DNA of 35,368 bases from an uncultured Bacilli bacterium (GTDB lineage Bacteria > Bacillota_I > Bacilli_A > RFN20 > CAG-449). Location: NCBI GenBank assembly GCA_944332525.1, contig CALVKD010000039.1:1-35368 (forward strand), read 5' to 3'. A program made the translations under genes and the position numbers. Positions 5,713-6,463 of this stretch are shown piece by piece. The notes below the pieces were generated by a model, which was not told the DNA's origin, searched no databases, and saw nothing but the letters and a program-made list of their open reading frames with translations. How positions within the stretch are numbered: position 1 is the stretch's first letter; each line of letters begins with the position of its first letter.

Positions 5713-5850
5713 CAAAAAAAGCTGGGAGTTCAAAGATTCTCTCAGCTAACTTATTTCTATAGTGAAGGAATGATCTTAATAACAGTCTAGCTGTAAAGAT
5801 TTTTGCTGGGTCATATAAATGCCCTAATGATTAATATAAACATTCCTTCA
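5713..5850 (-). ncRNA. Candidate small RNA or leader RNA upstream of galK
   Basis: A minus-strand transcript of about 138 nt is predicted: TATAAT at 5856-5861, a start near 5849, and an intrinsic terminator at 5720-5747 (AGCTGGGAG with CTCTCAGCT, one G-U) followed by seven U's. A perfect 10-bp stem joins the 5' part (TGAAGGAATG, 5841-5850) to CATTCCTTCA (5763-5772 as read on the minus strand). Inside are two smaller hairpins, GGGCAT..ATG-A-CCC and ACAG-CTAGA-CTGT. No coding frame with a ribosome-binding site is present. I do not recognise 6S, SRP, tmRNA, T-box or a known riboswitch class. The -35 is weak. Because galK follows on the same strand, this could be a free sRNA or an attenuating leader. 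Confidence 0.5.
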
Positions 5851-5874
5851 TTACTATTATACTATAATATTTGA

Positions 5875-5937
5875 AATAAAAAAACTAAGAGGTTACACTC
5901 CTAGTTTTAGTATACGAAAAGAGGCTTATGCCTCTTT
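5875..5937 (-). terminator. Two terminator hairpins after hsp20
   Basis: Two hairpins follow the hsp20 stop on the minus strand. The first is AAAGAGGC (5918-5925) with GCCTCTTT (5930-5937). The second is an 11-bp stem with one G-U (5881-5891 with 5898-5908) followed by a U-run. Together they separate hsp20 from the small RNA locus. The linker between them holds the 16-mer TTTTAGTATACGAAAA, which recurs at 16635. Confidence 0.75.
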
Positions 5938-6392: not shown

Positions 6393-6463
6393 TTAGCACT
6401 CATCATTCCCAAGTGCTAACTATATTATAGCCTCTTTTAGCACTCTGTCAAGTAGTTTGCTAA
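6393..6463 (-). promoter_or_regulatory. hsp20 promoter flanked by two CIRCE elements
   Basis: The minus-strand promoter is near consensus: TTGACA (6446-6451), 16 bases, TATAAT (6424-6429). One CIRCE (TTAGCACTC-N9-AAGTGCTAA, 6393-6419; one mismatch to consensus) lies just downstream of the -10. A second, more degenerate copy (TTAGCACTC-N9-GTTTGCTAA, 6437-6463; two mismatches) overlaps the -35. CIRCE is the binding site of the heat-shock repressor HrcA, so this arrangement predicts tight repression at normal temperature. GGAGG follows 11 bases before the ATG. Confidence 0.9.

Follow-up and report, generated by a model that had tools for sequence, protein, structure and literature searches.

A small-RNA gene of IS110 left ends, in solo form, between hsp20 and galK of an uncultured Bacilli bacterium

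What is the structured RNA encoded between hsp20 and galK in an uncultured Bacilli bacterium (GenBank assembly GCA_944332525.1, contig CALVKD010000039.1, positions 1 to 35,368; this whole stretch of 35,368 nucleotides [nt] is referred to here as the window)? The initial annotation of the locus had placed there a TATAAT box, a 10-bp long-range stem, two inner hairpins, and a terminator, all of which are present at those positions. It overlooked that the unit runs upstream to position 5916 via a second terminator hairpin (5881-5908) and that the unit is repeated and mobile. Our comparisons show a solo copy of a gene that usually makes up the left end of IS110 insertion sequences (ISs) in one clade from Bacilli and Mollicutes. 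The small RNA is probably related to the bridge RNA but has a single loop, and it would bind the recombinase as a decoy or regulator. The parts of the unit are listed below in window coordinates.

5714-5916, minus strand: whole solo unit, 203 bp (left end, hairpin, promoter, small RNA, terminator)
5910-5916, minus strand: IS110 left end CGTATAC, the start common to the copies
5881-5908, minus strand: left-end terminator hairpin AAAACTAGGAG..CTCTTAGTTTT, terminator-like by scan and kept in most copies
5861-5856, minus strand: -10 box of the small RNA, TATAAT, read from the sequence
5714-5850, minus strand: small RNA gene, about 137 nt, its 5' end placed from the -10 box
5763-5850, minus strand: closing stem P1 (10 bp; 5841-5850 paired with 5763-5772) and the domain it encloses
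5808-5824, minus strand: hairpin P2, with a bulged A at 5811; the recombinase-signature hairpin
5805-5811, minus strand: signature A-N4-G-C, here A-CCCA-GC, as found 3' of both bridge-RNA loop hairpins
5782-5794, minus strand: hairpin P3, ACAG-CUAGA-CUGU, from the covariation alignment
5714-5747, minus strand: small-RNA terminator, the right end of the solo unit (stem 5720-5747, T-tract 5714-5720)

The small RNA gene is real, and covariation is decisive for its fold. In a plain MAFFT alignment of 7 sequences (A7), 7 of the 32 base pairs had changed on both sides and 94.2% of the cells were paired, whereas a control with the pairing partners slid gave 0 to 2 such pairs and 34 to 45% paired cells. 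A7, which has more upstream sequence, replaced alignments A4 to A6, in which the closing stem had been misplaced between sequence types. In a larger alignment of 22 matches to model R1 (A8; 20 distinct sequences), 18 of the 32 pairs had changed on both sides and 93.4% of the cells were paired (slid control, 0 to 6 pairs and 32 to 47%); A8 was made by aligning the matches to the model and is biased toward structure. Among the 20 distinct relatives, both-sided change affected 9 of 13 pairs in P1, 6 of 6 in P2, and 2 of 4 in P3 (with 100% of the P3 cells paired), and the terminator helix (helix 4) was paired in 95.8% of its A8 cells. Models R1 and R2 match window positions 5717-5876 at 189 and 162 bits, respectively. 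The RNA at 5717-5851 folds at -29.9 kcal/mol (shuffled sequences, -21.9 ± 3.6), and because 5 of 200 shuffles were equally stable, the folding energy by itself is weak evidence; z scores for two relatives of type B (defined below) were -5.6 and -5.0. The small RNA's own terminator was missing from a simple terminator scan, its loop being longer than the scan permits, and the -10 box reads TATAAT, TACAAT, or TAAAAT among the copies. The initial annotation had named covariation among homologues and an Rfam comparison as checks; the stems do covary, and no known class, 6S RNA included, reached the Rfam threshold, with nothing plausible at E values up to 10. An Rfam search of the loci of five relatives likewise returned no family at the gathering threshold.

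Relatives of the small RNA occur at unrelated loci in gut Bacilli and Mollicutes (genomes and loci are identified below by G and L numbers, the window's genome being G000). The left boundary of the unit was set from 32 junctions with unrelated flanks, and the right boundary was set from the solo copies. The shared unit starts with CGTATACTAAAACT, followed by the terminator hairpin, the promoter, the RNA, and the RNA's terminator, with flanks that are unrelated among copies. The window's order contains two sequence types, namely, type A (the window's) and type B (G015, G178, G248, G122, G078, and G017). The closest copy in the order lies in the same hsp20-galK gap of a genome of the same genus (G001; 89% identical). 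A 26-nt core, with up to 3 mismatches permitted, occurred 10 times, always exactly, in 7 of the 279 genomes of the order; several of these copies were at contig ends, as is usual for repeats. A 22-nt core pattern matched 12 stretches among 84,980 species genomes. These include "Candidatus Avacholeplasma faecigallinarum" (L028), which has the window's small RNA without a single difference (135 of 135 nt), and an Acholeplasmatales bin (G280) with near-identical copies. Model R1 matched 14 of 160 genomes of the order of G280, and model R2 matched 11 of the 279 genomes of the window's order and 8 of 392 genomes of the phylum. Missed copies are to be expected in these model searches because the filters were strict; a copy in G039 that is cut by a contig end was found as a DNA match, yet it was missed by both the core pattern and R2. 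Most of the genomes are metagenome bins, and a single odd host may be a binning error, but the copies in G369, G401, and G312 lie on contigs 141 to 421 kb long, which speaks against binning error as a general cause. A viral or plasmid origin of the unit was rejected, as the core pattern had no match in IMG/VR or in phage and plasmid records.

In many of the 14 genomes matched by R1, a second noncoding stretch and then a recombinase of about 400 amino acids lie 3' of the small RNA. Two of these recombinases (P0001 and P0002) contain PF01548 (DEDD) and PF02371, both above the cutoff, and their relatives of known structure in the Protein Data Bank are IS621 and ISCro4. The complete element consists, in order, of the left end, the terminator hairpin, the small RNA with its own promoter and terminator, the bridge RNA, the DEDD recombinase, and the right end, terminating in ...TTATCTAATTTT. 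Ten left ends and eight right ends at contig edges in G280 show that the full element is multicopy. In G369, the second stretch has a three-part fold comprising a 5' stem-loop, the target loop, and the donor loop; the stretch in G325 also forms the target loop, with a less clear donor side. The window's own order has a full element as well (G188, L148), and families f15 and f20 have more distant ones (L160 to L162 and L165 to L167; L168 is broken).

The guides of this second stretch match the surroundings of the elements. The left target guide, taken as the 10 nt between GGRCGY and the hairpin of the bridge RNA, agreed with the flank left of the element at 113 of 140 positions in 14 elements (permuted, 87.9 ± 4.9; 0 of 100,000 permutations as good). 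After removal of two duplicate guides, the agreement was 97 of 120 (permuted, 75.5 ± 4.4; again 0 of 100,000). In 7 elements, the right guide scored 17 against the part of the right flank that lies past the T-run, versus 5.4 in permutations, 4 of 5,040 of which were as good. By eye, the donor loop contains ATCTAAT, the same as the right end, and a donor guide, ACGAAAA, complementary to TTTTCGT, i.e., the core plus the left end; the guide matches of the f15 and f20 elements and of L148 were also assessed by eye only. The full-length relatives are therefore IS110 elements of the IS621 type, with both recombinase domains and a bridge RNA matching target and donor. By these matches, the element begins where the small-RNA unit begins, and the small RNA is internal to the element, ahead of the bridge RNA. 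The alternative of an IS110 inserted behind an independent RNA unit was rejected, given that the target guide corresponds to sequence on the left side of the RNA unit and that ACGAAAA fits the outer left end TTTTCGT. These IS110 elements accordingly encode two RNAs, the window holding the upstream one alone. In the circular form, the right end (TTGACT or TTGATT) and the left-end TATACT (a presumed -10 half) would form an IS110 junction promoter. An IS200/IS605-type palindromic mini-element, an idea that arose from the TTTT junction and the subterminal hairpins, was dropped once IS110s with the same left end were found.

Solo copies, such as those in the window and G001, G015, G248, G178 (contig C113), G122, G078, and G369 (contig C3), have neither bridge RNA nor recombinase; their right limit is the T-tract of the small RNA itself. 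In the window, no recombinase, bridge RNA, or right end is present between 5714 and galK. Other copies are less clean: L095 ends at the T-tract with a short remnant, and L033, L036, L153, and L168 retain a broken piece of bridge RNA. We favor the view that the solo units may move on their own rather than being left behind, because five separate type-B insertions (G015, G248, G178, G122, and G078) are without remnants. The window's genome has a single copy of the small RNA, a right-end remnant of this clade that has no recombinase in its vicinity (L126; G000:C32:3255-3276), and a fragment of another IS110. A right end of the same clade also lies downstream of an unrelated transposase-like gene in G001 (L125; contig C9).

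In the window, the unit directly follows the terminator of hsp20.

5917-5937, minus strand: hsp20 terminator, hairpin and T-tract directly before the unit, the T-tract being the presumed insertion target

By scan, this terminator is terminator-like on the plus strand too. At the left junctions, a hairpin of -6 kcal/mol or lower stood directly before the T-tract in 22 of 32 cases, compared with 24 of 187 other T-runs at the same loci (at -8 kcal/mol, 20 versus 10). The bridge RNAs of most of these elements are programmed for terminator T-tracts. The f15 and f20 elements (L160 to L162 and L165 to L168), which were not among these 32 junctions, mostly have no obvious terminator at the junction, and terminator targeting is therefore a property of only part of the clade. 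Target sites in G711 (L162 and L165 to L168) are ATGTCT-like, and that in G575 (L160) is TAGTCATTT; one two-RNA layout therefore serves different target programs. A copy cut by a contig end in G152 (L024/L029; contig C76) seemingly lies, from its translated flank, inside a YfcE-type phosphodiesterase-like gene, with no clear terminator before it. Group IIC introns insert directly downstream of intrinsic terminators. The landing site is alike, but the chemistry and the enzyme differ, being here an IS110 recombinase with its bridge RNA. Landing behind intrinsic terminators by RNA guidance, as in most of this clade, would be mild for the host.

A likeness to the bridge RNA may explain what the small RNA does. 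In IS621, as described in the structural report, a recombinase dimer reads each bridge-RNA loop through a flipped-out A and a syn G (A67/G72 in one loop, A150/G155 in the other), the signature being A, four nt, and G-U after a hairpin; the two loops in the complex stem from two RNA molecules, and separate loops function in vitro (PMC11208158). The bridge RNAs of many of our elements carry an IS621-like signature as AUCUCGUA 3' of the target hairpin. In the small RNA, A-N4-G followed by U or C and then an A-run comes after P2 in 27 of 29 distinct sequences, with 3.4 expected from shuffles; the exceptions, L095 and L101, are both copies outside an IS. In G325, 19 nt of the small-RNA loop are identical to the element's own target loop. 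The fold has one closing stem with P2 and P3 and no separate target and donor loops. The core is constant within types and across landing sites, and the left strand, which begins with GUU in 28 of the 29 distinct sequences, matched its own element no better (7.77 of 9 positions) than other elements (7.49 of 9) in 13 elements.

From the retained signature and a left strand that tracks no element, we infer that the small RNA is related to the bridge RNA, with one loop only; it should bind the recombinase dimer and would carry no productive guide following target or donor. Made from integrated copies, such an RNA may occupy the recombinase or substitute for one bridge-RNA loop, and occupied recombinase would most likely mean restrained recombination, i.e., copy-number control. 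A decoy would be the simplest role. The copy in the window would then have been left behind or have moved separately, and would still produce the RNA. More tentatively, the small RNA might be a natural anti-bridge RNA: a second, self-standing, one-loop RNA of IS110 elements that binds their recombinase and holds RNA-guided recombination in check, with solo copies spreading or persisting because they confer immunity to the element. The natural control of bridge-RNA recombinases, which are promising tools for DNA rearrangement, is little known, and a second RNA that bears the recombinase signature but lacks an evident guide might serve as an off-switch or as a loop acting in trans.

Several results weigh against this reading. 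The outer A of the symmetric IS621 signature was not seen in P1, and type A copies, including the window's, have G-C in place of G-U. The plain-sequence likeness of the small RNA to its own bridge RNA was significant in only 3 of 9 elements (G325, G432, and G430), borderline in G312 (13 of 300 shuffles) and G290 (23 of 300, outside the loops), and absent in 4. No antisense relation of the small RNA to the bridge RNA or the tnp leader was consistently above shuffles in 8 elements with four comparisons each. No recombinase of this clade was found in the window's genome. The left guide of the bridge RNA was poor in some elements (4 of 10 positions in G420 C110; 7 of 10 in G420 C108 and G375). A survey of 13 recombinase relatives (E values up to 1e-60 to P0002; 160 genomes) supports the reading for the most part: the small RNA was upstream in 8, and of the others, two are cut by contig ends (L112 and L122), one is a broken fragment (L121), and one has a replaced 5' end (L117). 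The remaining one, L120 (G396:C31), whose recombinase is 38% identical, has no such RNA and counts against it. L120 has a similar left end, TTCGTATAATAAAAG, but a different RNA region, and is possibly an ancestor or sister arrangement.

The best-surviving alternative, which we nevertheless consider unlikely, is that the small RNA acts as a guide in its own right, a free-standing third loop leading the recombinase to a fixed DNA site, for example, for moving solo units. The loop architecture, the GUU before the left strand, and a right-side A-run able to pair with T-tracts fit such a role, as do the at least five separate type-B solo insertions and the separate loops described as working in IS621 (PMC11208158). 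Against it, the left strand is unvarying with landing site and no better matched to its own element than to others, and the core is constant within types.

Somewhat less probable still is control of recombinase expression by base pairing or as a sponge, with no binding of the recombinase. The precedent is ISPpu9, an IS110-family element of Pseudomonas putida described as having two small RNAs, Asr9 and Ssr9, the latter with orphan copies (PMC8450116), and the position of our gene upstream of the bridge RNA and tnp would suit such control. Complementarity to the bridge RNA, the tnp leader, or their antisense strands was, however, not consistent in the 8 elements, on which ground antisense control of the bridge RNA or tnp leader was rejected, and the recombinase signature would be left unexplained. 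Energies against the antisense strand of the bridge RNA were low in G325, G432, G430, and G312 (0 of 100 shuffles as low in each) because of sequence similarity, not pairing.

Ssr9 is also the closest precedent overall, compared here by description and not by sequence homology. As described, it is a second structured RNA of an IS110, about 180 nt long, with its own terminator and intergenic orphan copies far from the IS, and its unit is proposed to move or stay behind (PMC8450116); our small RNA likewise occurs both in full elements and as solo copies. Ssr9, in contrast, lies downstream of tnp and is proposed to be a sponge of the antisense Asr9 (PMC8450116), whereas our gene is part of the left end and precedes both the bridge RNA and tnp, and neither pairing of that kind nor consistent complementarity to an antisense of the tnp leader was found for it. 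The likeness to the IS621/IS110 bridge RNA lies in the left-end position and in the loop hairpin followed by A-N4-G-U, but the bridge RNA is described as having two loops with target and donor guides and a length of 177 nt in IS621 (PMC11208160, PMC11208158), while our RNA has a single loop, P3 as an additional hairpin, its own internal promoter and terminator, and no guide following target or donor; moreover, our full elements also carry a canonical bridge RNA. The seekRNAs of IS1111 and IS110 elements are similar as RNAs from a noncoding region required by the same recombinase family, but they are described as one RNA per element that guides target choice (PMC11187229), whereas ours is additional. 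IS110 elements carrying a single bridge or seek RNA are established (PMC11208160, PMC11187229); the titles and abstract openings listed by searches of an open-access collection described no terminator-targeting IS110 clade and no second bridge-like RNA.

It is improbable that the gene is a host small RNA with a cellular function, spread by IS110s as cargo and useful in its solo form. Its own promoter and two terminators insulate the gene, and in L093 and L095 a host terminator has replaced the left-end hairpin. Its distribution is nevertheless patchy, by the R2 counts given above, and the only copies clearly devoid of the signature, L095 and L101, do not belong to an IS, which would be expected if the signature is useful to the IS only.

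There remains the relation to galK. The initial annotation had weighed a stand-alone RNA against an attenuator or riboswitch-like leader of galK and had pointed to a separate galK promoter, at which our scan also found a promoter-like site.

5692-5664, minus strand: galK promoter-like site, from the promoter scan; outside the part common to unrelated loci and not in the unit

The stand-alone reading holds, the RNA having its own promoter and terminator and relatives at loci without galK, next to lysC/aminotransferase (L004), an MscS-like gene (L003), or IS110 recombinases. A cis-acting leader of galK is very improbable and was rejected on gene neighborhoods: the RNA is directly upstream of galK on the same strand, but solely in the window and G001, which share one insertion, and G002, of the same genus, lacks the unit ahead of its best galK homologue, where a terminator of similar sequence is present, although the gene upstream is a different one.

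Upstream of hsp20, the window contains TTAGCACTC-N9-AAGTGCTAA at 6393-6419, which we take to be a CIRCE (controlling inverted repeat of chaperone expression) element with one mismatch, suggesting control of hsp20 by HrcA.
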